Part shown: one piece after another, positions 9,333 through 24,283 of the stretch | How the letters are laid out: each line of letters begins with the position of its first letter | Position numbering within the stretch: the stretch's first letter is position 1 | Source of the DNA: a virus | Strand: one strand, 5' to 3' | Length of the DNA stretch: 24,283 nucleotides | Virus record (IMG/VR): IMGVR_UViG_3300040801_002380 | Span: 1-24,283 of that record | Notes under the pieces: model-generated | The model's database searches: none | Told to the model about the DNA's origin: nothing | What the model saw: the letters and a program-made list of their open reading frames with translations, nothing else | Translations under genes and position numbers: made by a program

Positions 9333-9364
9333 CGGGGGAGGGCGCGGCAGCTGCCCCTCCCCCG
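9333..9364 (-). terminator. 10-bp GC hairpin between tail tube and chaperone genes
   Basis: Arms CGGGGGAGGG (9333-9342) and CCCTCCCCCG (9355-9364) pair perfectly around a 12-base loop that contains the palindrome GCAGCTGC. No T-run follows on the minus strand (next bases GCGTCTAGG), so it may attenuate, pause or protect the highly expressed tube mRNA rather than terminate cleanly. The 110-base gap (9300-9409) holds no gene. Confidence 0.5.
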
Positions 9365-12141: not shown

Positions 12142-12497
12142 AGATCGATGAACACCAATTTGGCCACGGCAGCCCGCAGCTCGCTGACCTTGAGGGTCTC
12201 GATGACCTGCCGCTCCATTCCGTGGGCCTCGGCCAGCTCGGCGAGCTCTTTGCGCGGCAGATTGTTAAACCGGGTCTTCGTCATCTCGCGCTCTTGGATA
12301 AGCTGCGCGTGCGGCGGGCGACGCTCGACCCCACCAATCTCAAGGCGTCCGGACTGAACCCAGCTCTCGATGTATCCCACGTTATCGGGATGCGTCAGAT
12401 GAGCCCGCGAAATCTCGGCGCTGCGTCCGGGCCGAAGCTCCAACGCCGCCGTCTTCAGGGAGAAGGTCCGGTTACTCCGGTTCGTGATCTTCGGCAT
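12138..12497 (-). CDS. Small head-region protein with C-terminal helical (HeH/Rho-N-like) module
   Basis: 119 residues from the ATG at 12497, chosen because GGAGG lies 5 bases upstream; it overlaps the previous gene by 26 bases. The first half (ITNRSNRTFSLKT, LELRPGRSAEISRAHL, YIESWVQSGRLEIG) is a small beta-rich unit. The second half (LPRKELAELAEAHGM, LKVSELRAAVAKLV) resembles the helix-extension-helix or Rho-N-like modules that bind nucleic acid in some proteins. A similar tail end occurs in the small gene after the capsid gene. Function unknown; probably a minor head or connector component. Confidence 0.6.
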   Translation of the reverse strand: MPKITNRSNRTFSLKTAALELRPGRSAEISRAHLTHPDNVGYIESWVQSGRLEIGGVERRPPHAQLIQEREMTKTRFNNLPRKELAELAEAHGMERQVIETLKVSELRAAVAKLVFIDL

Positions 12498-13035
12498 CGT
12501 CGCCTCCGTCGATGAAGTCGCTCGGGCCCCCAAGCAGGACCCGCGTCCAACCACTCATAGAACGCATCCCGGCCCGATATTCGGTATCCACGCTCGGCCA
12601 GACCCGCCGAAACCCTTTGCAGGAGCGCCAGTTGGTTTTGTCGAAGAAGTGCGGGCTCGGGGTCATCGGAACCCCGCAGAAGAGGACCTCTTGATACCCA
12701 CAGTTAACCATGGCCACCTTCGCGACGTAGAGGCCGCTCGATCCGGACGCTTTCTGCCCCGGGAAGGTGTACTCCGTGACCCGTATCTCCGGGACGTCCT
12801 TATGCGCTCGATGGGCCCAAAAGGCCTTAGCGGGCGGGTGACCGTTCGCGGCACGCTGTTTACGCCAGCGGTCGAGCTTTTCGGGGTGGAGGCTTACCCA
12901 GCCGTCCAATTCGCCTGCCCAAACAGCCCCCGCATCGTTGCACGCGAATACCGCGTCATAACGAATACCGAGTTCTTCGACCTTGGCGAGATCCGTGAGC
13001 AGCGTATGCCCGCCGCCGAGGCAGAGCGCCCTCAC
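12472..13035 (-). CDS. Rossmann-like protein of the sugar-modification block (MptE/DUF115-like?)
   Basis: 187 residues from a GTG at 13035 that overlaps the glycosyltransferase stop (GTGA), with GGGAG 8 bases upstream. It opens with a beta-strand and glycine turn (RALCLGGGHTLLTDLAKVEEL), then AVFACNDAGAVWAGELDGWVSLHPEKL and later GSSGLYVAKVAMVNCGYQEVLFCGVPM. The order (nucleotide-binding-like loop, ND pair, SG..A..A helix, GVPM) recalls DUF115/MptE-like and sialyltransferase-like proteins often found beside phage glycosyltransferases. Enzyme activity is not established. Co-overlap with the two neighbours implies a joint role. Confidence 0.55.
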   Translation of the reverse strand: MRALCLGGGHTLLTDLAKVEELGIRYDAVFACNDAGAVWAGELDGWVSLHPEKLDRWRKQRAANGHPPAKAFWAHRAHKDVPEIRVTEYTFPGQKASGSSGLYVAKVAMVNCGYQEVLFCGVPMTPSPHFFDKTNWRSCKGFRRVWPSVDTEYRAGMRSMSGWTRVLLGGPSDFIDGGDDAEDHEPE

Positions 13036-13646
13036 AGTCCGATCTCCCACGGCCGCGGCTTCCCGTGGAAGCAGACGATTCTCGCAGCTGGCGGGATGAC
13101 GCCTCCCCGGCAATGACGCTTCCACGAGACCACGGCCCCAGGTAGCACGTCTTGCCAGTAGGTTCGCAGCCCGTGCGGGATCGCGTCACCGATGAAGCCT
13201 TGATCTCCCCACTTCCGCGACGTCCGGCATTCGCGCATATATCGCTGCGGGTCCTTGGCGAAAGAACGGTAGACGTGGCTGGCGTCGCCACTCCACCCCA
13301 TCAGCCCCGACCCCATCAACCCCTCGACCCCATTGAACTCTCGAAGGGCAAGGAAGTCCCGCACACGCACCTGATGGCAGATGGGTTCGAGATCGCCGGT
13401 GATCAGGGTATCGAGGTCGAGGTAGAGGACCGGCCCCGGCAGCTTGAAGGCCTCGATCTTCGACCACCACCCCGGCCAGTTATTGAGCAGGGGGAGCGTC
13501 CGGATATATCCGGGCAACTCCATGTCGGTCAGGCAGTAGAAGGCGCTTTCGATTGGCGACCATGTCTGCCACTGTTCGTGAAGCCGTGCGACGTGGCCGG
13601 GGCGAAAGTCTCCGCCCGACCGAAGAACGGTAACGACCTTCAGCAT
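13032..13646 (-). CDS. GT-A fold glycosyltransferase (GT8-like)
   Basis: 204 residues. It begins MLKVVTVLRSGGDF, the strand typical of nucleotide-sugar binding GT-A enzymes. Metal-binding DxD is at 77-79 in VLYLDLDTLITGDL, an acceptor-side WGDQGFI at 146-152, and a C-terminal CFHGKPRPW (192-200) whose histidine usually completes the metal site. All expected catalytic elements are present, so it looks active. It transfers a sugar from an activated donor to an unknown acceptor. It overlaps the FkbM gene by 7 bases upstream and the Rossmann-like gene by GTGA downstream. No membrane segment. Confidence 0.8.
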   Translation of the reverse strand: MLKVVTVLRSGGDFRPGHVARLHEQWQTWSPIESAFYCLTDMELPGYIRTLPLLNNWPGWWSKIEAFKLPGPVLYLDLDTLITGDLEPICHQVRVRDFLALREFNGVEGLMGSGLMGWSGDASHVYRSFAKDPQRYMRECRTSRKWGDQGFIGDAIPHGLRTYWQDVLPGAVVSWKRHCRGGVIPPAARIVCFHGKPRPWEIGL

Positions 13647-14302
13647 GGGGTCGCCAGAATGTTCCGCTCGTCCGCCCGCCGCGAGATGTAGTCCCGAGCG
13701 ATGAGCCAGTGTTCGAGGCGCGCAAAATGCTCCGGAGTGTTCGCTTCGAGGACTAGGGTCGGCCGGTCTTCCTCGATAATCCGAGAGGCCCCTGCCAGCA
13801 CCGAAGCTTCATGGCCCTCCACGTCGATCTTGAGCAGGGCAACGCGATCCGCCACAACGCTGTCCAAGGTAACTGTGGGCACTTCTTCGCTGGTCGGCCT
13901 CCCGCACGTCGCTGCCTCAATCGATCCTCCCGAGGTAAGGGGAAGCGCCGGGTTCGACCAGAACGTGGTGCTTCCAATCCTGTCGGACGCGGCGGCAGGG
14001 ACGATCCGCAGCTGCTCCTCCGTGAGCTGGTTGAGATCCCGATTGGCGCGCAGACGGTCGAGGACCCGAGGGTTCGGCTCGAAGGCAATGACCGGGACAT
14101 CCATCAGGGCGAACGGGATCGAGAACCACCCGGTCGAAGCCCCAACATCAACGAAGACCCCGCCGTCTCCTTGGGCGAGGGCGCTTTTCATGAAGATAAA
14201 GGTCGCTGGCTCGAAAGTCTTGCCGGGGTTGGCGCGCAGCCAACGGATGATCATATCGTCCTTGTCCCAGAAGGACGCCCCGTTCGCTCTAAACTCGTTC
14301 AC
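13640..14302 (-). CDS. FkbM-family methyltransferase
   Basis: 220 residues from a GTG at 14302 overlapping the previous stop (GTGA), with GAGAGGGG 8 bases upstream. SAM-binding motif I is VFVDVGASTGWFSIPFA (about 49-65), the acidic motif II is VIAFEPNPRVL (71-81), and the FkbM signature LLKIDVEGHEASVLAGA spans about 157-173, followed by RPTLVLEAN. These are intact. FkbM enzymes O-methylate sugars and related small molecules. Being coupled to a glycosyltransferase suggests methylation of the transferred sugar. The placement, within head-completion genes, is unusual. Confidence 0.88.
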   Translation of the reverse strand: MNEFRANGASFWDKDDMIIRWLRANPGKTFEPATFIFMKSALAQGDGGVFVDVGASTGWFSIPFALMDVPVIAFEPNPRVLDRLRANRDLNQLTEEQLRIVPAAASDRIGSTTFWSNPALPLTSGGSIEAATCGRPTSEEVPTVTLDSVVADRVALLKIDVEGHEASVLAGASRIIEEDRPTLVLEANTPEHFARLEHWLIARDYISRRADERNILATPC

Positions 14303-14829
14303 GACCGGAACCCCTCTCCGACAAGGCGATTGCCGGTTTTGCCCACGTTAAGGAGCGGGCCGATGATATCCATGACCTTGGTCGGGACAGGGCGATCCGC
14401 CCATGCGTCGGTGCGGTAGTTCTCGTATTCCACAGAGAGCGGGCCGACCTGCTGACGCTTTACCTTGGCGCTCGGGGTCGAGGTTGGGTTCATCGTGCCG
14501 GGACTGACCAGCTCAAGGAGGGCGATCTCCGCGGTCGCCCGTTCGATCTCACTCGGAACCTCGTCCGAAGGGACGGCAAAGCCATCATCGTCCCCGACAT
14601 AGTAGCGCGGCCACCCGAGGGCCTGATCCCGACCGTTGATCTTGTAGCCTTGCCACTTGAAGCTGTCCGTCAGGTAGAGCGAGGCGCGACGGATGGCGGC
14701 TTCCTTGAGCGCGTCCGCACCGGTCCAAGCGGTATTGCCGAGGTTCGTATGATAGGCGTCGGCGTAGGCAAGCGAGATGAACGCATCTGCGTTCGACAGG
14801 CCCGTGCCATCTTCAACGGTCAGGGTCAT
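14299..14829 (-). CDS. Head-tail adaptor / head completion protein (DnaT-like fold family)
   Basis: 176 residues. Begins MTLTVEDGTGLSNADAFISL..ADAYH, then WTGADALKEAAIRRASLYLTDSF, RDQALGWPRYYV and PSEIERATAEIALLEL: the hallmark of the phage family annotated as DnaT-like, which acts as the adaptor ring on portal. GAGG lies 5 bases before the ATG. It follows the small connector protein after 7 bases and is overlapped by the FkbM gene. The DnaT label is a database name; a replication role is not implied. Confidence 0.75.
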   Translation of the reverse strand: MTLTVEDGTGLSNADAFISLAYADAYHTNLGNTAWTGADALKEAAIRRASLYLTDSFKWQGYKINGRDQALGWPRYYVGDDDGFAVPSDEVPSEIERATAEIALLELVSPGTMNPTSTPSAKVKRQQVGPLSVEYENYRTDAWADRPVPTKVMDIIGPLLNVGKTGNRLVGEGFRS

Positions 14830-14836
14830 GGCATCC

Positions 14837-15163
14837 TCAGATGGCGAGGGCGGAGATCAGACGGTCCTTGAGCTCCGCGGCGTTGCCCACAACGGGCTGG
14901 TCAAGGGCTTCGAGGTTCTCGACCAGCTCGGCCTTGGTCATCCGGTAGACCTGCGAGCGGGTGAGCTTGGCGACCTCGGCCTCCTTCTCGGGGGCTGGCG
15001 CAGGCTGGCCGCCGTCCACGAATTGCGGAGGGGTCGCTGGCGGCTCCGGGGCGTCGGCCAGAGGGGTGTGCTTGGCGGGATCGAACGCCGACCGGTTGAT
15101 GGTCTTCCATCCTCGGTGGTTGTTCGGATCGTCGTCCTTGATTGTGATCTTAGGTATGCGCAT
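14837..15163 (-). CDS. Small head protein with C-terminal HeH/SAP-like module
   Basis: 108 residues. GGAGG 7 bases upstream of the ATG. The N-terminus (MRIPKITIKDDDPNNHRGW, INRSAFDPAKHTPL) is polar; the middle is an Ala/Pro-rich linker; the C-terminus (LTRSQVYRMTKAELVENLEAL, AAELKDRLISAL) is a two-helix module like HeH or SAP domains. Genes of this type are often found just after major capsid genes. Role unknown, possibly head decoration or connector. It is the first gene after the capsid hairpin. Confidence 0.65.
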   Translation of the reverse strand: MRIPKITIKDDDPNNHRGWKTINRSAFDPAKHTPLADAPEPPATPPQFVDGGQPAPAPEKEAEVAKLTRSQVYRMTKAELVENLEALDQPVVGNAAELKDRLISALAI

Positions 15164-15186
15164 CGGGCTGCCTCCAAAGCAAGGAA

Positions 15187-15210
15187 GGGCCCCCGGTTAC
15201 CCGGGAGCCC
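15187..15210 (-). terminator. Intrinsic terminator-like hairpin after the major capsid gene
   Basis: On the minus strand GGGCTCCCGG, a GTAA loop and CCGGGGGCCC form a 10-bp stem (one G-U) followed by TTCCTTG. It lies 10 bases past the capsid stop. The pyrimidine tail is weak, so partial termination or 3' mRNA protection is likely, giving more capsid than downstream message. Confidence 0.65.
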
Positions 15211-15220
15211 TGTTGGTCGA

Positions 15221-16378
15221 TTAGCCGAGCAGGAGCGCGGCGTGCTCCGGCTTGATCGCCTTCACGCCCCAGCAGATGGCCACTTCATAGGTGACCATGC
15301 GGTACTGCCTGTAGAGCGAGATCTCGAAGGTCAGCCCCGAGACCGGGTCCGTGACGTAGGCGCGGTCTTCCGCCTGATCGCCACCTTCCGGGATGAACGG
15401 CGTCCGCGCGGCGAGCTGGAAGGCATCGCGCGTGAAGACCATGTTGCCCGTGTAGGACGGCGTGAAGGTGACCGCATCGCCGTCATCGACGGCGACACGC
15501 AGACCAGGAGCGGCGAGGATCAGGGAGGCATCGTTCCCACCGGCGTCCGCCGTGGAGACGACATACTTGTCCGCGCCGCCCGCGATCTGGACCACGTCAC
15601 CGGCGAGGAACGCCCCCGTGTGGGTATCGACATTCAGCGTCGTGTCGCCGATGTCATAGCCCGAGGCGTTGTCGATGAGGTAGTCCGGCGACGCCGCGAC
15701 CAGAGCCGTGTGCGTCTTGATCTGCCCGGAGTGGTGGAACTCCCCGCCGAACAGCTGCTCCATCATCCCGAAGCGACGGGTCATGTCCTGCCCGGCTTCG
15801 TTCACGCGGAACATCGAGGGCTGCTTGCCGAGCAGCTTGGCCACCGCGGCCGAGCCCAGAACGACATGGCGATCCGTCTTCGGAGCCCCGTTGTCGTCAA
15901 GGATGCGGAGCACTTCGGAAAGGTCGGTGAGGTCGTCACCGGTCCCGAAGGGCGTGGTCCCGCCCGTGCCGTGCGCCCGCGACGCCGAGACATAGAGCGC
16001 CGCAAGATCGGACTCCATCTCGTTCGAGAGCGTGCGGAACGCCTGCGCGAACCGCTGCGTGGCGATGGCGCGGTTGTTCGCCTCGCCGAGCCCGCGCTGT
16101 TCCTCGCCGGTCAGGTTGAACGTGACCTTCCGCTGCTTCGTGATCTGGATGTCCACGAAGCCGATGGTCTGGTCCGCGCCCTTGGCAGCCACGTTGGTCG
16201 GCGTGATGTCTTCCGCCGCCATCGCGCCGACGACCGGCGACCGCACGACCTGATTGACCGCCGCCATCTCGGCGGTGGCGTCCCGGCTCACGGCCGAGAT
16301 GAGACCGATCATTTCGCGAGAAACCACGTTCATCGCGTTGTACATGATCGGGTAAAGACCCGTCAGAGTGTTGGCCAT
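15221..16378 (-). CDS. Major capsid protein (P22 coat-like family)
   Basis: 385 residues. Begins MANTLTGLYPIMYNAMNVVSRE, then AVSRDATAEMAAVNQVVRSPVV and VDIQITKQRKVTFNLTGEEQ, as in the P22-type coat family. The later beta insert (DIGDTTLNVDTHTGAFLAGDVVQIAGG broken by ADKYVV) resembles the GDVFTIAG region of P22 gp5 relatives. AGGAGGG lies 4 bases from the ATG, one of the strongest sites here. There is no N-terminal propeptide and no protease gene nearby, consistent with scaffold-based, non-proteolytic maturation. A strong hairpin follows the stop. The exact family should be confirmed by a profile search. Confidence 0.85.
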   Translation of the reverse strand: MANTLTGLYPIMYNAMNVVSREMIGLISAVSRDATAEMAAVNQVVRSPVVGAMAAEDITPTNVAAKGADQTIGFVDIQITKQRKVTFNLTGEEQRGLGEANNRAIATQRFAQAFRTLSNEMESDLAALYVSASRAHGTGGTTPFGTGDDLTDLSEVLRILDDNGAPKTDRHVVLGSAAVAKLLGKQPSMFRVNEAGQDMTRRFGMMEQLFGGEFHHSGQIKTHTALVAASPDYLIDNASGYDIGDTTLNVDTHTGAFLAGDVVQIAGGADKYVVSTADAGGNDASLILAAPGLRVAVDDGDAVTFTPSYTGNMVFTRDAFQLAARTPFIPEGGDQAEDRAYVTDPVSGLTFEISLYRQYRMVTYEVAICWGVKAIKPEHAALLLG

Positions 16379-16523
16379 CTGGCCCTCCTATTGCTTGAGT
16401 TTGGGTTGGGCAAGTGCCCGGAAATGGTCTTTCCAGACCGCGCGCCCTCCGCTCTCCTGCGAAAGAGGGCTCTAAACGAGGTCCGCCGCCCGGGGGTCGG
16501 AACGGCGAACCCCAAGTCCACAG
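16379..16523 (-). other. 145-base intergenic leader of the capsid gene with two small hairpins
   Basis: No gene is seen. Two inverted repeats lie here: GGTCT/AGACC around a four-base loop (16426-16439) and GCCCTC/GAGGGC around 15 bases (16444-16470). Neither is followed by a T-run on the minus strand. They may process or stabilise the capsid mRNA. The capsid ribosome binding site ends the region. Confidence 0.4.
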
Positions 16524-17321
16524 TCAGGCTGCCGGGTTGTCGATCACTTGGATCTCGCCCTTGGCCATGAGAGTGGATTTCTCGTGAGCTGGGAGCGCAT
16601 CGAACTCGCTCCGCAGTATCTGCTTCCCTTGCGTTCCGCCGCCCGGACGACCACCGCCCTGCGCGCCACCGCCATTCGATCCGGTCCCCTTCAAGATGTT
16701 GTCCTTGTAGGGATACTGGTCGACCAGAATCTCCAGCGCCTCGTCAAAGTCGGCAGGCTCGCCGGGGCGGGCCTTGGAGTAGATCTGGTTACCGTTCGCA
16801 TCCTTGGCGATCACCTTGCCGCCATCGATGGCGAAGTGCGAGCCAAAGCGGCTCTCCACCATGTCGGGCGGAATGGCGACCTTCTCGCCGATGAACTTCG
16901 ACCGCGCGAAGCGTCCGCCGATCATCTCCTTGTGGAGCGTTCCCTTGAGGGCGTCGCGCTCCTCAACGACCGGCTTGTACTGCGCCTCGACCGCCTTGAT
17001 CGCCTCCTGCTTCACCTTCTCGACCTCGCCGGCGTCCACCAGCTGCTTGTCGTTGAGGTTCTTCACCGTCTGGAGGGCCTTCTTGGCCGCGGCTGGGTCC
17101 TCGATGCCCGCAAACGCCGCGAGCTTCTCCTCCGCCTGCTCCTTCGCCAGTCGATGCCCGCGCGCCTCGCCCTGGAGCTGCGTCACCTTGTTGTTGGCGA
17201 ACTCGGCATCGAAGCCGATCTCCTTGTTGGTGTCGGTATCGAGGTAGACAGGAAACCCCTTGCTGTCAACTTCGGCGTAGGTCTTTCCCTCGACCTCAAC
17301 GGTCTTAAGTTTCAACGGCAT
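16524..17321 (-). CDS. Capsid scaffolding protein (DUF6651-like)
   Basis: 265 residues. Highly charged and helical in the middle: EARGHRLAKEQAEEKLAAFAG, AAKKALQTVKNLNDKQLV, VEKVKQEAIKAVEAQYKPVVEERDAL (shown in parts), as scaffolds are. The C-terminal third has a conserved-looking IPPDMVESRFGSHFAIDGGKV and a Gly-rich linker (GTGSNGGGAQGGGRPGGG) before a short terminal domain. AAGGAG lies 6 bases before the ATG. It sits between portal and coat, the usual scaffold slot. No serine-protease motif is visible, so it is probably scaffold only. Confidence 0.8.
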   Translation of the reverse strand: MPLKLKTVEVEGKTYAEVDSKGFPVYLDTDTNKEIGFDAEFANNKVTQLQGEARGHRLAKEQAEEKLAAFAGIEDPAAAKKALQTVKNLNDKQLVDAGEVEKVKQEAIKAVEAQYKPVVEERDALKGTLHKEMIGGRFARSKFIGEKVAIPPDMVESRFGSHFAIDGGKVIAKDANGNQIYSKARPGEPADFDEALEILVDQYPYKDNILKGTGSNGGGAQGGGRPGGGTQGKQILRSEFDALPAHEKSTLMAKGEIQVIDNPAA

Positions 17322-17354
17322 CGTCTTCTCCTTGCTCTATCTGAGCGTGCGCCC

Positions 17355-18884
17355 CTAGCTCTCCGCCACCGGGGCTCTTTGCTGGCCGGGCTGCCCCGGC
17401 GAAGGCTCTTCCTCCTCCGGCTCGTCCAGCACATCCGCCGCCAACTCCTCCGCGTCTTCGTCGGGATCGTATTCAGCAGTCAGGATGTTCCTTCGCTTCG
17501 CTTCGGTGATCAGGGCCTTGCGGCTGATATCCCCGTTGCGGCGCATCTGCATGACTTGACCGAAGCTGGCGTCATCGCCAAGGCCTAGGTCGAAGTCGAG
17601 GTCGATGAGGACCGCCCCAAAGTAGACCTCCGGGTCTTGGCGCAGCCACATCGCGGTATAGCGCAACGCCTGTTCGAGAGCGACCTTGAGGTTCAGGGCC
17701 CACGCCTGAATTGCGGCGTTCGCCTTCTGAGCGGCAAAAGCGGTCGTGACCACGGTAAGGTTGCCGGTCTGGGCCGTCAGCGGCTGCCGCCCGAGCTCCC
17801 GTAGCTCCTTGGTCGTGTCCTTGATGTGCTCGCGCAGGAAGTTGAGGCTTTCTGCCGAGGGCTCGATGAAGGCCCAGCTCCCGCCGTCCGGGGCGTAAAG
17901 GACCGCATGCGGACCCACAGGGACGGGGGCCGGCTTGCCGTCCTCGCCGACCGGGGGCTCGACCGAGTTGGCCGACAGCATCGGGAATGCGGTCAGGGTC
18001 TCGATATGCTTCAGGGAACTTTCGAGCTGGAAGAGCTCGATCTGGAGGTCTGCGGCCCCTTCCATCGGAGCCTGAACCTGCCATGACGTCCCTTTGCGAC
18101 GACCGGCGAGGAAGGGCACCAGCGTGATGACAGGGACGGTCATCGCGGTCGGGCCTTGGGTTCGCTGCCATGTCTCGGAAGAGGACTGCGCGTCCTTCCG
18201 CTTCTGCCAGATTTCCCATGTGGGCGCACTGTAGACGCCGGGGCTCGTTTGCTCGCGATTTAGCACCCGAATCTGATCGACGGCCTTTTCCTCGAAGCCT
18301 ACCCGCTCGACAACGGTTTCCTTGAGGCGAACGTGAACGAATTCCTCTTTGCCGTTGATCATCGCGCTTTCGGCGGCGAGGACACGGTCTGCGGTGTAGC
18401 GACACCAGAACGGGCGAGCCCCGATCTCGCGCTCTACCGCTCGGGTCGCGTTCTCCGGAACGCCGGCCGTGTAGTCCACGAGAATCCAGTCCAGCCCGGC
18501 GTTGATGCCGTTGGCGAAGACGTCGCCGGCGAAGGAATGGATGGTCGAACCGCGCCCGTCCACGTCCTCGCAAAACCTGTGCAGGTCGTCCGGGGCGTCG
18601 TCCTCGATCACGACTTCCTTAGCGAAGGGGCGCTGTGCGAGGTTCTCGACAATGTCCTGGTAGACGTTGGTGAAACGAGCGTTCTTGCGACGGAAGTTGT
18701 AGTTGTCGTCTGTTTCCCTCGGGTAGCGCGGCAGGAAGACGGCGGCGTTCTCGCGCATGGCGTTGGTGCCGCCCATAATGGAACGAACCTGAAACCACAG
18801 GGGGGCCATCGCCTGATGGTCGATGCTCGGGGCCGCTGGGCTCTTGGCATCAACCGTGAAGTCTGAGGTCGGGATCTTGTCCAT
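17355..18884 (-). CDS. Portal protein (DUF4055-like)
   Basis: 509 residues. The N-terminal portion (PLWFQVRSIMGGTNAMRENA, FLPRYPRETDDNYNFR, RFTNVYQDIVENLAQRPF) matches the DUF4055 portal family. The centre has PFWCRYTADRVLAAESAMI and LVPFLAGRRKGTSW; the latter part has QIELFQLESSLKHIETLTAF and a helical stem region (ESLNFLREHIKDTTKELRELG). The acidic C-terminus (DPDEDAEELAADVLDEPEEEE) is typical for a clip or tail segment. It starts 3 bases after the large terminase stop, with only a weak ribosome binding site, so translation may be coupled. Forms the dodecameric DNA channel at one capsid vertex. Confidence 0.88.
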   Translation of the reverse strand: MDKIPTSDFTVDAKSPAAPSIDHQAMAPLWFQVRSIMGGTNAMRENAAVFLPRYPRETDDNYNFRRKNARFTNVYQDIVENLAQRPFAKEVVIEDDAPDDLHRFCEDVDGRGSTIHSFAGDVFANGINAGLDWILVDYTAGVPENATRAVEREIGARPFWCRYTADRVLAAESAMINGKEEFVHVRLKETVVERVGFEEKAVDQIRVLNREQTSPGVYSAPTWEIWQKRKDAQSSSETWQRTQGPTAMTVPVITLVPFLAGRRKGTSWQVQAPMEGAADLQIELFQLESSLKHIETLTAFPMLSANSVEPPVGEDGKPAPVPVGPHAVLYAPDGGSWAFIEPSAESLNFLREHIKDTTKELRELGRQPLTAQTGNLTVVTTAFAAQKANAAIQAWALNLKVALEQALRYTAMWLRQDPEVYFGAVLIDLDFDLGLGDDASFGQVMQMRRNGDISRKALITEAKRRNILTAEYDPDEDAEELAADVLDEPEEEEPSPGQPGQQRAPVAES

Positions 18885-18887
18885 GCG

Positions 18888-20297
18888 TTATCCGTAGGTC
18901 CCAAAGACCGCAGCGCGGCGTTTCGTCACGTGTTCCGAGAATGCGCGCGACAAGGCGTCTACGATGTCCGCTCGCTTGCCGAACGGGAAGGCGCAAACCT
19001 CTTCGAGGAAGCCGTGTACCCAAGGGCCGCGGACAAGCTTGATGTTGCCCGCCTCGGCCTGCGCGGCTACCGGCTGCGCTCGGGTATATTTGTCGCCACT
19101 CTCGGGCGAGGCCTTGTAGTTGAACCCAGCCAGATGCCGGATCAGGGCCGTTACCTGAGCCTTGCCCGCTTGGCCGGGGTCCTGTGGAAGTGACCCGCGC
19201 ACCTGCTGGCCGTCCTGCGTCGCCGTGTTGCGGATCGTGCGAAAAACCCCGTCCGGCGAAAGCCATTCCGCTACCGTGTCGCGGATATAGAAGACCCCGT
19301 CTGGCGCTCGACCCAGGAGCACGCCAGCGGTGCGAGCCCCGCCTTCCTCGGCCGTAGCCGCTAGGTCCCAACCGCGCACCCAGTCCACATTGGCCGGGGC
19401 CGCCTCGACTATCTCGAACCAGTCCTTCTTGAAGAGGCCCCCGCCCTCCGGGATCGGGTTCTGCATATACTGGCCAGCGAAGACGAAGGCGCTTGCCTTC
19501 TCGCGGGCCTCCAGACTGGCAAGCGGGAATTGGTCTTCCCAGAAGGACGCCCCGTCCACGACCGCCGGGATCTTGATATGCTCCCACTTCTCGCCGTTAT
19601 TGCCCTCAAGCAGCCAGCCTGCTAGGTCTTCCTCATGAAGGCGCTGCATAACCAGAATGATCGGGGTGTCGTCCCGGTTCTTCCGGGACTCCATGGTCAT
19701 CTGAAACCAGTCGATCACGTTCTGGCGCATCAGGGGGCTCGTCGCCTCGCCCGCCTTGTGGGGATCGTCAATCAGGATCGCCCCGCCGAAGCCTTCGCGC
19801 ATCTTGCCGGCACCATAGCCGGTGATGGTGCCCTCTGCCCCGGTGGCGTAGAAGATACCACCCTGCGCCGTCCGGAACTCGTCCTTTGCCGTGCTATCGC
19901 CCGCCATCACGACATGCGGGAATATCTGGCGATACGTCTCGGACTGCATCAACGCCCGGGTCTCGTAGGTGTTCCTTGCTGCGAGCCGCTTCGAGTAAGA
20001 GGCGTGGATGAATTCGCTGTCGGGGAAGAGGCCCCCACTCCACGCCATGAACTGCTTGACGGCGATCTCCGTCTTCCCAGCTCGGGGCGGGATGTTGATG
20101 ATCAGGCGCTTCGTCCGCCCGAGGACCACCTTCTCCAACGCCGTGCAGACGACCTCTTGATGCCAGTTGCGCTTCAACGGCTGATTCAGCTCGCGCCGAA
20201 ACATCAGCCCGAGGAACGAGAGCAGGTCGCTCTGCGCGTCAGCGATCTCCTGCGGCGTCAGCCGCTGGCTCCGCGCCGTGCTTCCTTCGAAGGGCAT
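18888..20297 (-). CDS. Terminase large subunit
   Basis: 469 residues. ATPase Walker A is NIPPRAGKTE with PPRAGKT at 70-76; Walker B is AILIDDPH with D177-D178; the coupling motif follows near VMQRLHEEDLAGW (217-228). The nuclease half carries the three acidic positions expected of an RNase H-like fold: RGWDLAA (D311), LPQDPGQ (D373) and KRADIVDALS (D444/D447). Length is normal. All catalytic residues are present, so it should be active. The start at 20297 overlaps terS by 59 bases, with GGAAG 9 bases upstream. It packages DNA through portal. Confidence 0.95.
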   Translation of the reverse strand: MPFEGSTARSQRLTPQEIADAQSDLLSFLGLMFRRELNQPLKRNWHQEVVCTALEKVVLGRTKRLIINIPPRAGKTEIAVKQFMAWSGGLFPDSEFIHASYSKRLAARNTYETRALMQSETYRQIFPHVVMAGDSTAKDEFRTAQGGIFYATGAEGTITGYGAGKMREGFGGAILIDDPHKAGEATSPLMRQNVIDWFQMTMESRKNRDDTPIILVMQRLHEEDLAGWLLEGNNGEKWEHIKIPAVVDGASFWEDQFPLASLEAREKASAFVFAGQYMQNPIPEGGGLFKKDWFEIVEAAPANVDWVRGWDLAATAEEGGARTAGVLLGRAPDGVFYIRDTVAEWLSPDGVFRTIRNTATQDGQQVRGSLPQDPGQAGKAQVTALIRHLAGFNYKASPESGDKYTRAQPVAAQAEAGNIKLVRGPWVHGFLEEVCAFPFGKRADIVDALSRAFSEHVTKRRAAVFGTYG

Positions 20298-20760
20298 CCA
20301 GCACCGCTTCCTGTGTTTCCCTCGGGGTCATCGAGCCATCGGAGCTCGTATGGTCGACCTTGTCCGCCAGTCCGATGTCCCGGGCGATGAAGGCGGGGTT
20401 CAGCATCTCGGCCGCCGCACCCTCGAATTTCTGGGTGTAGATGATGTCCGAGATGGCGCGGGCCATGTCGCCCACTTCGTCGCCCTCGGGGCGCTTCTTC
20501 CAATTCTCGAAGGTCCGATCCGTGATGCCGAGATGCCCGCAGAGCCCTTTGATCGTAAAGGCTCGCATCCGGCCGATGGTCACGCGCTCGATCCCGTCCT
20601 TGGTCGAGAACACTTTCTCTTCTTTGAGCGGGTTGGCGTTGCACCAGTTGAAGTAAGCGATGGCCTGTTTACGAAGCTCCTCCGGCGACAACGAAGTGAA
20701 CGGACCAGACGGCCGAAGCCGGGTCGTCCAGAAATTCGCTTGACGCAGTAGCTCGCTCAT
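20239..20760 (-). CDS. Terminase small subunit
   Basis: 173 residues. Residues about 24-110 form a helical DNA-binding region (SPEELRKQAIAYFNWC, RAFTIKGLCGHLGITDRTFENW: a helix-turn-helix). The oligomerisation part follows (MARAISDIIYTQKFEGAAA, FIARDIGLADKVDHTSSDGS). This matches phage small terminases with an N-terminal HTH; ending in DALRRKHGAEP is also usual. It heads the late operon and overlaps the large subunit. It recognises the packaging site and loads the motor. The ribosome binding site is modest (GAGG, 7 bases). Confidence 0.85.
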   Translation of the reverse strand: MSELLRQANFWTTRLRPSGPFTSLSPEELRKQAIAYFNWCNANPLKEEKVFSTKDGIERVTIGRMRAFTIKGLCGHLGITDRTFENWKKRPEGDEVGDMARAISDIIYTQKFEGAAAEMLNPAFIARDIGLADKVDHTSSDGSMTPRETQEAVLDALRRKHGAEPAADAAGDR

Positions 20761-20848
20761 CGAGAAGCCTCAGGACTTCGCGGGAAGTTCCCTTCCCTCG
20801 TTTCGGGTCGGAGGGCAGTCAAGCTTTCGCCAACCAGCTCATCTCCGT

Positions 20849-20867
20849 CCGACGCTATATGCGCCGG
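20849..20867 (-). other. Small hairpin in the leader before the terminase genes
   Basis: In the 119-base gap 20761-20879, CCGGCGC-ATATA-GCGTCGG folds as a 7-bp stem (one G-U) only in minus-strand RNA or non-template DNA. No T-run follows, so it is not a terminator. It lies between the NusG-like gene and the late genes, where an antiterminator loading site could be. No promoter matching both consensus boxes is seen here. Confidence 0.35.
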
Positions 20868-20879
20868 TGATCCTTTCCC

Positions 20880-21380
20880 CTATATGGCGACTTTTCGCAG
20901 GAGGAAAGAGGGAACATCAACCCGCAGCCCAGATTTTTCCAGTAAAACACGAAAATACCCAGATATGGGGGTGTCTACGATCCCTTGGCGTCCCTCGAAA
21001 GGGCCTTGGCATATCTCGACGCGATCCCCCGGCGTAAACTCGATGTCCGGGGCATCGGGAGGGTCCTCGCTCGGCTCGCCGATGAGATGGAGGGCTTGCA
21101 GGCCCACAGTGGCTGGCACGCCATTGATGAGCAGCGGGCTGAACGGTGGGACTTGGAACGCCCGGGCGCGGTAGAGCGCCTCTTGGATGTCGCGACTATC
21201 GATGAACACGAAGGTCGGCATCAAAGGCAGCGTAACCACTCGGGTCTTCTTGGATCGAGGCAGACGGATGCGTCGCCGCCACCGCGGAGCCCATGCCCGG
21301 ACCCCGAACGCATAAAGCTCCCGCGCTAGCGGAAGCGTCTGGCTGCTGTTGCAGCGCACTATCGTGAATTCGTCTCGCAT
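20880..21380 (-). CDS. NusG/RfaH-like transcription elongation (antitermination) factor
   Basis: 166 residues. The N-terminal NGN-like domain (about 1-105) has FTIVRCNSSQTLPLARELYAFG, RLPRSKK, and the typical LPLMPTFVFID (51-61). The C-terminal KOW domain (about 115-166) has FTPGDRVEICQGPFEG, QGIVD, YFRVLLEKSG and VPSFLLRKV. A linker rich in Pro/Asp separates them. NusG paralogues such as RfaH or LoaP bind RNA polymerase and suppress termination in long operons. A phage-specific copy just before a 20 kb late operon suggests that it drives late transcription. It has its own promoter-like sequence and a hairpin leader. The ribosome binding site is weak (a G-run 3 bases from ATG). Confidence 0.85.
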   Translation of the reverse strand: MRDEFTIVRCNSSQTLPLARELYAFGVRAWAPRWRRRIRLPRSKKTRVVTLPLMPTFVFIDSRDIQEALYRARAFQVPPFSPLLINGVPATVGLQALHLIGEPSEDPPDAPDIEFTPGDRVEICQGPFEGRQGIVDTPISGYFRVLLEKSGLRVDVPSFLLRKVAI

Positions 21381-21400
21381 GTGCCCCCGTTGGAAAGAAT

Positions 21401-21440
21401 GCCGGGGAGGGGGAAGAAGGAAGAAGGAACCCTCCCCGGC
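21401..21440 (-). terminator. 11-bp perfect hairpin in the leader of the NusG-like gene
   Basis: GCCGGGGAGGG (21401-21411) and CCCTCCCCGGC (21430-21440) pair perfectly around an 18-base purine/pyrimidine loop. On the minus strand the stem is followed by ATTCTTTCC, a modest pyrimidine run. It ends 20 bases before the ATG. It could attenuate transcription, autoregulate the gene or hide the start. The arms resemble those of the hairpin at 9333-9364. Confidence 0.6.
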
Positions 21441-21457
21441 ACCAGACCACCAAGGGT

Positions 21458-21487
21458 CTTATACGATGAACGGCCCTCGGCTTTCAC
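21458..21487 (-). promoter_or_regulatory. Candidate sigma70-like promoter for the NusG-like gene
   Basis: On the minus strand GTGAAA (21487-21482) lies 18 bases from TATAAG (21463-21458), which matches 4/6 and 5/6 of the consensus. Transcription would begin near 21450 and run straight into the hairpin leader. Predicted from boxes alone. Confidence 0.35.
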
Positions 21488-21500
21488 CGAGAAGGATTGT

Positions 21501-21695
21501 TCACCGTCGCAGCACGTGAATCAGCTCCAAGACCTTCGCCTGATCCAGGACGATCCCGAGCGTGCCGCGATGCATGGGCTGTGGGCCCAGCATGCTTTCG
21601 AGATGGGCCGCCCACGCTTCCCGCGTCTCGGCCTTACTCAGTTCCTGCTGCCGCAGATCGAAGATGTCGATCCCGAGAGCCAGTCCGTAATTCAT
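21501..21695 (-). CDS. Small protein of unknown function
   Basis: 64 residues from ATG 21695, which overlaps the glycosylase stop (ATGA); GGGAGGG 6 bases upstream supports this start over the upstream in-frame ATG. Begins MNYGLALGIDIFDLRQQEL and ends LDQAKVLELIHVLRR, mostly helical. No family recognised. It is the last gene before the NusG-like leader. Confidence 0.6.
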   Translation of the reverse strand: MNYGLALGIDIFDLRQQELSKAETREAWAAHLESMLGPQPMHRGTLGIVLDQAKVLELIHVLRR

Positions 21696-22042
21696 CGCGC
21701 GCCCTCCCTGCACCGCTCGCAGCGCGAGCGCAAGAGCGAAAGCGACCAGATCGGGTCCACCTTCGCGTTAAGCTCCTCCCTCGGCAGCCCGCGCAGGAGC
21801 CGCTTGAATTCGGTCTTCGCCGGGAACGGGGATTGATGAATCATCCCCCGCCGCGCCATCTCGCGCACGAGCTGCTCATGGCGCACCCAGAGCGCGGTCG
21901 GTTCGAGCATCCCGCGTGTCGTATACTGCGAGATCGACATCCCCTTCTCGATGCGTCCGAGGAAGACGTGAGTTTCGTGATGTTCCCCGAGCAGGTGCTG
22001 ATCGCACATCTTGTCGGGATCGACCATCCACATTCGAGGCAC
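21692..22042 (-). CDS. Pyrimidine dimer DNA glycosylase (T4 endonuclease V-like)
   Basis: 116 residues from a GTG at 22042 that overlaps the upstream stop (TAGTG), with GGAGGG 8 bases upstream. The N-terminus VPRMWMVDPDKMCDQHLLGE aligns without gaps to T4 endonuclease V: Arg3, Asp14-Gln15-His16-Leu17, Glu20 and the catalytic Glu23 (GEHHE) all fall at the same numbers. Later, WVRHEQLVREMARRGMIHQS resembles the T4 helix FLRKRQIELIAECLKRGF. Such enzymes excise UV-induced dimers using the N-terminal amine and Glu23. Here position 2 is Pro, not Thr. Repair of phage DNA after UV exposure is the likely role. Starts at internal ATGs would destroy this register. Confidence 0.8.
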   Translation of the reverse strand: MPRMWMVDPDKMCDQHLLGEHHETHVFLGRIEKGMSISQYTTRGMLEPTALWVRHEQLVREMARRGMIHQSPFPAKTEFKRLLRGLPREELNAKVDPIWSLSLLRSRCERCREGAR

Positions 22043-22200
22043 TAGACGAGCCCTCCGAACAGGGCGACCAAGAGCTCGATTACCCCGAGCAGCATCAGGA
22101 AGACAACGCCGAGGGCGACCGCGGCGGTTCCGACGAAGATGTAGCTCCAGATCAGGAAGTTGATCCACCACTCCGAGCGATTAAGCGGCTCACGCGACAT
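22042..22200 (-). CDS. Small two-helix membrane protein
   Basis: 52 residues from the ATG at 22200, which has GGGAG 7 bases upstream and overlaps the previous gene by 11 bases. After a charged N-terminus (MSREPLNRSEW) it is almost wholly hydrophobic (WINFLIWSYIFVGTAAVALG, LMLLGVIELLVALFGG), about one long or two short membrane segments. Its stop is shared with the glycosylase start (TAGTG). Size and topology would suit a holin-like or other membrane protein, but no lysis enzyme is nearby, so this is not assigned. Confidence 0.65.
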   Translation of the reverse strand: MSREPLNRSEWWINFLIWSYIFVGTAAVALGVVFLMLLGVIELLVALFGGLV

Positions 22201-22408
22201 TGGCCAACTCCCTCTTCTTGAGCTCAACCCGCAGCGCGCCGATAAGCGGCGGCAGGTGCTGGTCGTCCCGGGCGTTGCCCGTATCTAGCCGAGCCTGATA
22301 CTCGGTCAGCTTCTCGCGCAGGAATTCGTCCGACGCTTGGGCGATCCACGCCAGGATCGATTCACTTAGGGCTGTCACGATGCGGTCCTCCAAACTAGCA
22401 CGTCCCAT
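22190..22408 (-). CDS. Small helical protein of unknown function
   Basis: 72 residues. Mostly helix: SLEDRIVTALSESILAWIAQ, DEFLREKLTEYQARLD, then LPPLIGALRVELKKRELANVA. The ATG has a purine-rich GGGGGAAGG just upstream. It starts 45 bases after the DUF6011 gene, just past the terminator-like hairpin. No family recognised. Confidence 0.6.
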   Translation of the reverse strand: MGRASLEDRIVTALSESILAWIAQASDEFLREKLTEYQARLDTGNARDDQHLPPLIGALRVELKKRELANVA

Positions 22409-22439
22409 TTTACCTTCCCCCGCTGAGTTGCTTCAAGCG

Positions 22440-22466
22440 AAAAGGTGGGGCCATCAGAGGCCCCAC
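22440..22466 (-). terminator. Terminator-like hairpin spanning the stop codon of the DUF6011 gene
   Basis: On the minus strand GTGGGGCC, loop TCTGAT, GGCCCCAC forms an 8-bp perfect stem followed by CTTTTCGC. The TGA stop (22456-22454) lies in the loop. Four T residues make it the best intrinsic-terminator candidate in the early block. Ribosomes finishing the gene would disrupt the stem, so termination may depend on translation. Confidence 0.6.
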
Positions 22467-23299
22467 TTGTCCTTGCAGATCGGGCCGATGCCCGCGTCAA
22501 TCGACGCATGGTTGGTCAGCTCGCGCCCACAGCAGGCGCAGCGTCCCGTGCGCTGGCCGTAGCGGAGCGCCGCGGCGAGCGGATCGGCCGCGATGGCCAG
22601 CAGGGCCTCGGCGGCGCTCTCGCCGCCCCGGACCGGCTTGAACGTGGTCCCGAGGATCTTGCCGAGGTAGGTCTGCTCCTCGTTCTTGACATAGAGCGCG
22701 CCGGGGTTGTTGCCCGTATCGGGAGCGCGGTTGATGATCAGGCCCTCGGCCCGGTAGGTCGGCTTCTTGTAGCCGTTCTCTACCGCGGTCTCGAACATCT
22801 CGCGGATCGGGGCGAGGTCGACCGAGACTTCGGCCTTCTTCGCCTCGGCAGCGCGCTCGGCGCGGATCGCTTCAAGCTTCTCCTTGCCGCGATGCCAAGC
22901 GGCGACCTGCTTGTCCGACAGCGAGCCCCGCGTGAAGAGCTGCGACGCCAGCGAGACGATGAACTCGTTGCTGCCGCCCAGCTCGTGGACGTTCTTGAGC
23001 TCCCGGAACATCTCGGGCTGCGCAGCGCGGAAGGCCTCGATGCCGTCCGACAGGGCCTTCGCCTTGGCGACAGCGGCGTTGACGCGGCGCTCCTTCAGCT
23101 TGCGCGGGTCCGTCTTGAAGTAGCCCTTGCCCCGGCAAGCGAAGCAATGCGCCTTCTCCTGATGGACGCGGGGGCCGCGGTAGATGCCCGTGCCGCCGCA
23201 CTGGCCGCACTCGAAGCGTTCTTCCTTCGTCCGCTTCGACGCGGCCGGCAGCGCCTCGTCCGCGAGGCCATCGATGAAGTCGTTCCAAGAGGTGGTCAT
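22454..23299 (-). CDS. Zinc-binding protein: DnaJ-type zinc finger motifs plus DUF6011-like C-terminus
   Basis: 281 residues from ATG 23299 (AAGGAG 7 bases upstream). Two CxxCxGxG motifs at 31-38 (CGQCGGTG) and 52-59 (CFACRGKG) form a DnaJ-like zinc site. A charged helical middle (PRKLKERRVNAAVAKAKALSD) and a beta region (TYRAEGLIINRAPDTG, ALYVKNEEQTYLGKILG) lead to a C-terminal CACCGRELTNHASIDAGIGP..C (C254, C257, C275), characteristic of DUF6011. There is no J domain, so it is not a DnaJ cochaperone. It may be a nucleic-acid-binding early protein; function unknown. Weak -35/-10-like boxes (GTTACA, TAATAT at 23325-23330) precede it. Confidence 0.75.
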   Translation of the reverse strand: MTTSWNDFIDGLADEALPAASKRTKEERFECGQCGGTGIYRGPRVHQEKAHCFACRGKGYFKTDPRKLKERRVNAAVAKAKALSDGIEAFRAAQPEMFRELKNVHELGGSNEFIVSLASQLFTRGSLSDKQVAAWHRGKEKLEAIRAERAAEAKKAEVSVDLAPIREMFETAVENGYKKPTYRAEGLIINRAPDTGNNPGALYVKNEEQTYLGKILGTTFKPVRGGESAAEALLAIAADPLAAALRYGQRTGRCACCGRELTNHASIDAGIGPICKDKWGL

Positions 23300-23327
23300 G
23301 GCGTATCTCCTTCTTCCTGCCCCCATA

Positions 23328-23648
23328 TTAGAACGGAAGAGGCGGGTGTGTAACACCTTTCTTGCCTTTGCTGCGCTTTTCTGCGCGCTCCGAGGCGCGC
23401 GCCCGCTCCTCCTTGGCAGGGCTCGGGACAGGGGTCAGCGGAGGCTCCGGCAAAAGCAGCCCCTCGGCGACGAGCTCCGCCCGGGTCTTGATCCGATAGC
23501 GCGGGACCTCGCCCTGCCGGCACTGCGCGCACCCGCAGCGGTCCGGGTAGTGGTTATGCTGGCGGCAGACGCCGGTAGTGTTCGCCTCGCTCAAGCGGTT
23601 CCAGCAGCCCGGGACAGCGCAGAAGGGGTCGCGCTTACCCGAGGGCAT
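23328..23648 (-). CDS. Small zinc-finger-like protein
   Basis: 106 residues from ATG 23648, overlapping the previous gene by 14 bases; the upstream part of the open frame is Ser/Arg-rich and looks like an antisense shadow. Cysteine/histidine pattern C10-x4-C15, C28-xx-H31-x-H33, C38-x-C40-xx-C43 (FCAVPGCWNRL, GVCRQHNHYPDRCGCAQC) should bind zinc. The rest is a Pro/Glu linker and a basic tail (SERAEKRSKGKKGV). It could bind nucleic acid; no family is recognised. Start choice is uncertain because the ribosome binding site is weak. Confidence 0.6.
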   Translation of the reverse strand: MPSGKRDPFCAVPGCWNRLSEANTTGVCRQHNHYPDRCGCAQCRQGEVPRYRIKTRAELVAEGLLLPEPPLTPVPSPAKEERARASERAEKRSKGKKGVTHPPLPF

Positions 23649-23784
23649 AGACCAGGACCCCAAGCTGCGTGAGGAAGACGGCCGCCCACAGGAGCCGCTC
23701 GGGCCAGCCTTGGTCGCGGGCGATAAGCGAGATGAGGCCGATCCACGCCGTGATCGACGTGGTGGCAAGGGCGAGATCGAGCAT
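23635..23784 (-). CDS. Small membrane protein, two hydrophobic helices
   Basis: 49 residues from ATG 23784, which shares a base with the previous stop (TGATG). Hydrophobic segments LALATTSITAWIGLISLIA and LLWAAVFLTQLGVLVYALG are separated by RDQGWPER, the usual layout of a helical hairpin. Unknown function; holin-like by shape only. Confidence 0.6.
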   Translation of the reverse strand: MLDLALATTSITAWIGLISLIARDQGWPERLLWAAVFLTQLGVLVYALG

Positions 23785-24200
23785 CAGATGAAATCCTCCA
23801 GGAACTGCTTGAGGGCCGAAAAGTGGTCGCCGCACCCGCGATCCTGACCCACGATCCCTTCGACCGGGAGCGAGGTCGCAGCGGCGACGACCGAGCGGTA
23901 GAGCTTCGAGCCGTAGACCCGAACCTCGTCATGATCGCCCTCGACCTCGGCCAGCACCTTGCGAACCTGCTTGCCCAGCTCGACCGCGCGATCCGCGGTC
24001 AGGCGAAGGTCGTAGTCGGGGATTGACTTGTGGGCCGGGACGAGCCCGAATTGCGCCGAGAGGATGAAGACCTCATGGCCAGCGGCCCACAGGTCCTGGA
24101 TGCTCTCGCGGACCACGTCATGCTGGCGGGCAAGATACTTGTCGAAGGCCGGGACCGATCCCGCTTCCTTCTTCTCGCTGCATCCGATGACGATGATCAT
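23784..24200 (-). CDS. DUF6884-like protein (YaaA-like fold?)
   Basis: 138 residues from ATG 24200, chosen because AAGGAG lies 7 bases upstream; the longer frame runs through the promoter. Begins MIIVIGCSEKKEAGSVPAFD with a Cys-Ser at the end of the first strand, then VFILSAQFGLVPAHKSIPDYDLRLTADRA, the signature shared by DUF6884 and similar small proteins (CSxxK...LSAxxGLV...I.xYDL). The C-terminal part has RVYGSKLYRSVV and LPVEGIVGQDRG. Related proteins occur in phages and may act on nucleotides or DNA bases; I cannot assign a reaction. It is the first gene of the block here. Confidence 0.65.
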   Translation of the reverse strand: MIIVIGCSEKKEAGSVPAFDKYLARQHDVVRESIQDLWAAGHEVFILSAQFGLVPAHKSIPDYDLRLTADRAVELGKQVRKVLAEVEGDHDEVRVYGSKLYRSVVAAATSLPVEGIVGQDRGCGDHFSALKQFLEDFI

Positions 24201-24213
24201 GACGTAACTCCTT

Positions 24214-24250
24214 CTCCCTCGAATATAGGGCATACCCGAGGGAGATGCAA
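24214..24250 (-). promoter_or_regulatory. Promoter with an inverted repeat around the -10 box
   Basis: On the minus strand TTGCAT (24250-24245), 17 bases, TATATT (24227-24222) give a plausible sigma70-like promoter. Perfect 8-base inverted arms CTCCCTCG (24244-24237) and CGAGGGAG (24221-24214) lie exactly between -35 and -10 and right after -10. That placement fits an operator, or a hairpin at the 5' end of the message. Confidence 0.45.
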
Positions 24251-24283
24251 CAGGTTCAGTATCCGGGGCCGAGCGGGATGACG

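Follow-up and report, generated by a model that had tools for sequence, protein, structure and literature searches.

A phage-borne NusG paralogue and its structured leader ahead of a late operon: a candidate late antiterminator

Does a phage place a specialised NusG where lambdoid phages place Q? This question was raised by the gene of an NGN-KOW protein (P0001) in a 24.3 kb virus record (24,283 nucleotides, hereafter the window). Long operons for capsules, antibiotics, and conjugation are known to be turned on by specialised NusG proteins, and the Q gene of lambdoid phages sits at the early/late junction. Our reading is that P0001 is a phage-borne specialised NusG which probably serves as the antiterminator of the late operon in place of a Q-type factor, an activity that we infer. 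The NGN domain of P0001 would dock, by homology, on the clamp helices and the gate loop of the host RNA polymerase and replace the housekeeping NusG there. For RfaH, clamp-helix binding with displacement of NusG is described in PMC7593976. The polymerase carrying P0001 would become resistant to pausing and termination over the approximately 20 kb of the operon, whose late timing is presumed, and P0001 would thus fill the role of Q in lambdoid phages. A likely entry or control point would be the structured leader ahead of the P0001 gene, either as the recognition site of P0001 or as a terminator that P0001 reads through in a positive feedback like that described for the leaders of UpxY.

If phages use specialised NusG proteins as late regulators at a fixed place, an extra route to late expression would exist beside Q- and N-type proteins and put-type RNA, with small, testable antitermination modules for non-model hosts. 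The kind of protein is already known and named in databases (PHROGs). What draws interest is the recurrence of phage NGN genes at the junction, together with the compact layout of leader, gene, and operon in the window phage, both of which open late control by NusG replacement to testing.

An NGN-KOW protein ahead of the packaging, head, and tail genes

All assigned genes of the window lie on the minus strand. Read 5' to 3', they start with a DUF6884 and a DUF6011 protein and a few small genes, followed by a 120-base gap, the NGN-KOW gene, a second gap of 119 bases, and the terminase genes terS and terL. Portal, scaffold-like protein, and major head protein come next, and then head-completion, major tail, tape measure, and tail genes. 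The features at the start of this block are as follows.

20880..21380 (-): NGN-KOW protein P0001, 166 aa, ATG start; assigned as a phage-borne specialised NusG
20239..20760 (-): terminase small subunit (phrog_606, E 8e-36)
18888..20297 (-): terminase large subunit (phrog_38, E 1e-92)
15221..18884 (-): portal, scaffold-like protein, and major head protein (phrog_145, phrog_784/206, and phrog_283)

Over the approximately 20 kb downstream of the NGN gene, the assigned genes form a single co-directional packaging-head-tail block on the same strand, as the initial annotation had stated in placing the gene just ahead of a late block of that length.

Several other genes of the window were assigned. 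The second gene before the NGN gene (21692-22033 (-)) is pyrimidine-dimer glycosylase-like (Pfam Pyr_excise, E 7e-10). Within the head-tail block, the stretch 12472-14302 (-) holds a glycosyltransferase-like gene (phrog_1962), an FkbM-type methyltransferase gene, and one gene without a Pfam match, which together look like cargo. A tail protein of the phrog_1101 type (872-4279 (-)) contains a von Willebrand factor A-like stretch (DNSGS; residues 152-337; E 6e-5, 23.7 bits against a Pfam cut-off of 23.8) and a Ser-Pro repeat beyond it. Neither tRNA genes nor Rfam matches at gathering scores were found in the window.

P0001 matched the PHROG 6386 profile, named 'transcription antiterminator', with E 4.3e-16 and 60.2 bits (residues 7-141 on profile positions 17-152 of 179), and gave no match to PHROG 25909 at E values up to 10. 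The Pfam KOW model scored 22.5 bits, barely above its cut-off of 22.3, and the Pfam NGN model PF02357 gave no match. The NCBIfam scores were 24.5 bits for UpxY (NF033644, cut-off 100), 23.3 for RfaH (TIGR01955, 144.5), 15.2 for LoaP (NF033641, 125), and 13.1 for NusG (TIGR00922, 135.7); UpxY is the highest of the five scores listed for P0001 and is still far under its cut-off. In a phmmer search of the PDB, RfaH chains were matched with E 7e-4, and Spt5 chains as well. An NGN domain followed by a KOW domain, the arrangement of the NusG/Spt5 superfamily, is indicated by phrog_6386, Pfam KOW, and the fold matches described below, and the family scans returned no Q family for P0001. Judged by sequence, and mainly by the PHROG profile, the identification of P0001 as a specialised NusG is firm, in agreement with the initial annotation of a phage NGN-KOW NusG paralogue at this place. 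The same annotation had called such a protein unusual as a phage late regulator, in comparison with Q- or N-type factors, which is half right: phage proteins like P0001 already carry antiterminator or RfaH names in databases, two phage families are labelled as antiterminators in PHROGs, and NusG-like genes are annotated in phiLM21 and in RHph phages.

Close relatives of P0001 were found neither in viral contigs nor in genome contigs or plasmids, and the phage collection gave a single weak match. This match, L021 (MT835724), is a gut 'Bacteriophage sp.' record marked UNVERIFIED. The large ORFs beside its NGN gene resemble, by eye, efflux-pump and antiporter proteins, so the record may be bacterial DNA; it was left out of the synteny count given below.

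The domains and a charged segment of P0001 were located as follows.

21078..21371 (-): NGN domain, residues 4-101; strands and helices in AlphaFold2 (AF2): E4-9 H17-23 E29-39 E46-52 H65-73 H94-101
20892..21047 (-): KOW beta barrel, residues 112-163, five strands (AF2)
21240..21284 (-): basic NGN hairpin RWRRRIRLPRSKKTR, residues 33-47, net charge +9, within the beta hairpin 29-39/46-52

Structure prediction of both domains, proposed earlier as a check, gave the five-strand KOW barrel at pLDDT 77-84 but the NGN half with low to middling confidence. Without relatives, AlphaFold2 reached a mean pLDDT of 46, and the KOW barrel alone was modelled with some confidence. With 12 phage NGN relatives (13-row alignment), the mean was 67 and strands and helices emerged in an order resembling that of NGN domains; the blocks of the NGN domain had pLDDT values of 66-82 to residue 60 and of 39-61 thereafter to residue 110, with residues 78-111 below 50. 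Foldseek returned NusG, Spt5, and RfaH (on a transcription complex; E 2.4e-5), and as the whole-chain TM-scores were only about 0.3, the domains match one by one. The best BFVD match was a phage protein named RfaH (E 2.3e-6, TM 0.53). VIA-align, whose rows span residues 103-166 and barely cover the NGN half, gave Z values of about 9-10 to the KOW domains of Spt5 and NusG, and of about 9 also to small barrels such as ribosomal proteins.

At the level of residues, Tyr54 and Phe56, the aromatics by which RfaH contacts the clamp helices, align with Phe57 and Phe59 of P0001. The position of Glu48, which forms an interdomain salt bridge in RfaH, is taken by Leu51 in the alignments. The KOW domain is a beta barrel in both AF2 models, and switching to an alpha-helical, autoinhibited form in the manner of RfaH remains compatible with them. 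The basic hairpin RWRRRIRLPRSKKTR may be a nucleic-acid contact.

Recurrence of phage NGN genes ahead of terminase and portal genes

Three NGN proteins of the PHROG 25909 type served as queries and yielded 25 loci, whose synteny was determined by tblastn using terminases and portals of four phages as references. Most of the loci, and with them the bulk of the recurrence described below, belong to PHROG 25909, a sister family whose members are 16-23% identical to P0001, which limits its weight for P0001. The sole scanned locus closer to phrog_6386 (L092) encodes a compact NGN-KOW protein and has a terS match 2.9 kb downstream.

A terminase or portal gene was found downstream on the same strand in 19 of the 25 loci by tblastn, and the best match of each kind was never upstream. 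L079, recognized via PHROG, raised the count to 20 of 25. Three loci were counted on one gene only (L069 on portal, L072 on TerL, L092 on TerS). Among the remaining five, four contigs end less than 2 kb past the NGN match, and the 3.4 kb available in L081 gave no terminase match. Upstream of the NGN gene, 11 of the 25 loci carry a DnaA-like gene. The 25 loci form seven NGN clusters at 80% identity, and every cluster holds at least one locus with a terminase or portal gene downstream. Two loci are not independent: L013 was first found via TerL and used as a reference, and L090 is probably phiLM21. In the annotated phages phiLM21 and RHph_TM3_3_3, replication genes are followed by the NusG-like gene and then by the terminase.

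The recurrent junction position in seven clusters strengthens the reading of P0001 as a specialised NusG before a late operon, and the initial annotation is supported on this point. By analogy, the phage NGN gene occupies the position held by Q in lambdoid phages. The idea of late control is directly testable in annotated phages of Rhizobium and Sinorhizobium that have the gene at the junction.

Some features vary among these loci. A tRNA-Met is annotated between the NusG-like gene and the terminase at 13299-13375 of L066 and at 1347-1422 of L067 (phiLM21 and RHph_TM3_3_3), on opposite strands. Within one NGN cluster (L076-L079 and L082), the best-matching terminase references vary by contig, as if the NGN gene were fixed at the junction while the packaging modules swap. 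Some NGN proteins of the 25909 type (L013 17-460, L066 11860-12540) have no clear KOW in the alignment, and the phiLM21 NGN protein has no Pfam match whatever at E 0.01.

Records sharing the TerL, capsid, or scaffold genes of the window contained a phrog_6386 match (E 0.1) in 2 of 62 cases (1/19 and 1/43). Many of these records are fragments, but the count indicates that the late module can in general do without such a protein, a point against the proposed role. The two phrog_6386-bearing records led to the wider NGN family. Searches for relatives by TerL in genome contigs, and by TerS and portal in viral contigs, returned none.

The structured leader, hairpins of the operon, and competing explanations

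The region upstream of the NGN gene and the operon downstream contain the following elements.

21400..21441 (-): leader hairpin, perfect 12-bp GC-rich stem (21400-21411 with 21430-21441), 18-nt pyrimidine-only loop
21474..21493 (-): second leader hairpin with a GAAA loop, upstream of the 12-bp hairpin, from the predicted fold
21458..21487 (-): weak sigma70-like promoter GTGAAA-18-TATAAG, 9/12 match
21384..21388 (-): Shine-Dalgarno-like GGGGG ahead of the NGN gene
22407..22436 (-): alternative promoter, TTGAAG-18-TAAAAT, ahead of the small genes preceding the NGN gene; against 1.4 expected, 1 was found
22445..22466 (-): terminator-like hairpin overlapping the end of gene 22454-23356, with the promoter 22436-22407 just beyond
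15186..15211 (-): terminator-like hairpin behind the gene of the major head protein, T-rich tail, z -4.2; putative read-through target
9333..9364 (-): hairpin after the major tail gene, without a T tail; its stem has GGGGAGGG in common with the leader stem

The leader hairpin ends 19 bases before the ATG of the NGN gene and exceeds every other perfect hairpin of the window (loops 3-25) in stem length; a perfect hairpin of equal length occurred somewhere in 8 of 60 whole-window shuffles. The 126-nt leader folds at -57 kcal/mol (z -3.6), and none of 200 dinucleotide shuffles folded as well. The leader of the major head gene (16379-16523 (-), 145 bases) reaches -70 kcal/mol (z -3.2) in a fold of several hairpins, and the gap behind the tail gene is structured too, so that structure alone does not set the NGN leader apart.

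For the leader, the initial annotation had proposed a perfect stem of 11 bp and a promoter of the gene's own. The stem exists but has 12 bp. The sequence GTGAAA-18-TATAAG was seen with relaxed rules only, as one of five such minus-strand sites, and a standard promoter scan gave nothing at 21458-21487. The internal hairpins claimed for the operon are present at 15186-15211 and 9333-9364, but terminator-like sites are not enriched: the scan of 14500-24283 found 6 sites against 6.5 expected. Its loop limit was 8, and the leader hairpin with its 18-nt loop therefore lies outside that scan. In the gaps between NGN gene and terS of 20 loci (43,089 bases), 49 sense and 34 antisense terminator-like sites were counted, with the gap end roughly estimated, without a terS match, for L069, L072, L078, and L086. 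Given the count in the window and this weak sense excess in the other loci, terminator enrichment was rejected as evidence.

The strongest competing explanation, to which we give a little less than an even chance, is that the leader hairpin is the terminator of the preceding early unit, that the NGN gene is transcribed from a promoter of its own or from one upstream, and that P0001 aids late elongation without recognizing the hairpin. The GC-rich stem is followed by TTCTTTCC, and scored as a terminator the hairpin is terminator-like at -20.6 kcal/mol (inner 10 pairs, tail CATTCTTT). The phiLM21-like cluster keeps a terminator at the end of the early unit, there after the NGN gene: all 7 loci carry a hairpin with a T tail in the interval from the NGN gene to terS, approximately 104 bases past the NGN stop in six of them and 624 bases in L090. 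Such a hairpin ahead of terS also fits P0001 as an antiterminator, although the pattern was not found in any of the six other loci scanned. Before the NGN gene, a hairpin (perfect stem of at least 8 pairs with at least 5 G-C, up to 300 bases upstream) was found in 0 of 24 other loci, namely 23 of the 25 (without L013 and L075) plus phiLM21, where the start of the NGN match is not always the gene start. The absence from these 24 also speaks for the terminator explanation and against the main reading, and a leader hairpin as a general trait of phage NGN genes was rejected on the same count. Against a terminator stand the loop, as 18 nt is long for an intrinsic terminator, and the T tail, which is moderate and imperfect; the observations fit a terminator and a recognition element alike.

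We regard it as unlikely that P0001 instead disturbs host transcription, for example through competition with the NusG of the host, by which phage RNA would be shielded from Rho or host genes shut off. On RNA polymerase, RfaH and NusG share one binding site, from which RfaH keeps NusG out (PMC7593976), which would make such competition feasible. The Rho-contact loop of NusG, I164-F165-G166, is apparently not kept in P0001, where the predicted strands place KSGLR by hand, but the alignment of this loop is ambiguous, also in its placement by MAFFT. Moreover, phage NGN genes stand beside terminase genes of different kinds, which argues for a local job.

Less likely still is a translational role of the leader, in which read-in RNA would pair the Shine-Dalgarno stretch and the start codon, RNA starting at about 21451 would leave both open, and P0001 would be made only once the local promoter fires. 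In RNA from 21500, both elements are predicted to be paired, with mean unpaired probabilities in the 21500-21340 RNA of 0.008 at 21389-21385 and 0.026 at the AUG. In RNA from about 21451, four of the five G of the Shine-Dalgarno stretch are predicted to be open (0.95-0.98) and the fifth is not (0.01). The joint hiding was equalled by 0 of 400 dinucleotide shuffles of a 49-nt 5' part and by one among 400 native flanks from the window. When the 5' part was lengthened to 109 nt, however, 23 of 400 shuffles equalled it and the AUG was half open; in addition, the promoter is weak and the test was picked after the fold had been seen. The folding predictions thus give only a hint that the leader RNA hides the Shine-Dalgarno stretch.

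The idea that P0001 is an antiterminator of the late operon can also be put in a bolder form, which we consider improbable. Self-sufficient NusG paralogues would be Q-equivalents in a broad set of phages, and in the window P0001 would load at the leader hairpin, read through it and through later hairpins with a related stem (GGGGAGGG), and be switched on by the RNA structure of the leader. If so, some phages would control their late genes in a way of its own class, via replacement of NusG and not via Q, N, or put RNA. The window has four sites of GGGGAGGG (1.96 expected), one in each arm of two hairpins, and 14 of 100 shuffles reach four. By chance, 8 bases are shared in 5666 of 200000 trials when arms are shuffled and in 834 of 200000 for random stems of 80% GC. 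As the sharing was spotted post hoc, it was not treated as evidence.

Comparison with known systems

The initial annotation is right in kind and too specific. It had described the system as of the RfaH/LoaP type, which in the strict sense did not hold, and four families of the NusG group were rejected for P0001. For the housekeeping NusG, the score decided (13.1 against 135.7 bits).

With the phages of PHROG 6386/25909 (phiLM21 gp34, RHph_TM3_3_3 EVB37_001), the window phage shares an NGN protein whose gene lies between the replication module and the terminase. Unlike in phiLM21 and RHph_TM3_3_3, P0001 is a compact NGN-KOW protein of 166 aa, and its gene abuts terS directly and has a structured leader of 120 nt. 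In the two annotated phages, the gene begins close to or right at the end of its predecessor, and hairpins were seen solely after the gene.

Q-type late antiterminators share with P0001 the proposed job and the position at the early/late junction, as the P0001 gene lies directly before terS and the junction is also the place of the NGN gene in 20 of the 25 loci. They have a fold other than NGN-KOW, and no Q family was obtained for P0001. An experimental test of a phage NusG as late antiterminator was not found in the open-access literature searched. PMC7593976 notes rfaH-like genes on prophages and proposes that plasmid-borne NusG paralogues antiterminate tra operons.

RfaH has the NGN-KOW architecture and a similar length, and was matched by P0001 in the PDB (E 7e-4) and by Foldseek. 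The ops element of RfaH follows the pattern GGCGGTAGNNTG. No ops-like element (at most 2 mismatches) was present in 21381-21500, and the window as a whole contained 26 against 25.8 expected. With a score of 23.3 against 144.5 bits, a leader without ops, and Glu48 replaced by Leu, P0001 was rejected as a member of the RfaH family.

LoaP is likewise a NusG paralogue serving a long operon with a leader hairpin. The hairpin of the dfn operon is of the UNCG type; a leader hairpin can be required for antitermination by LoaP, and several later terminators can be read through, as described in PMC12691694. The region 21381-21500 contains no C-UNCG-G loop (CTNCGG), and P0001 was rejected as a LoaP member on this ground and on its score (15.2 against 125 bits).

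UpxY of the Bacteroides capsule operons is again a NusG paralogue encoded near the start of a long operon, with a leader ahead of the gene, and UpxY proteins are reported to prevent termination in the leaders upstream of upxY (PMC7819879). As a family member, P0001 was rejected on score (24.5 against 100 bits). In its layout of structured leader, NusG-like gene, and long operon, however, the locus is by analogy closest to the UpxY system as it is presented in PMC7819879.
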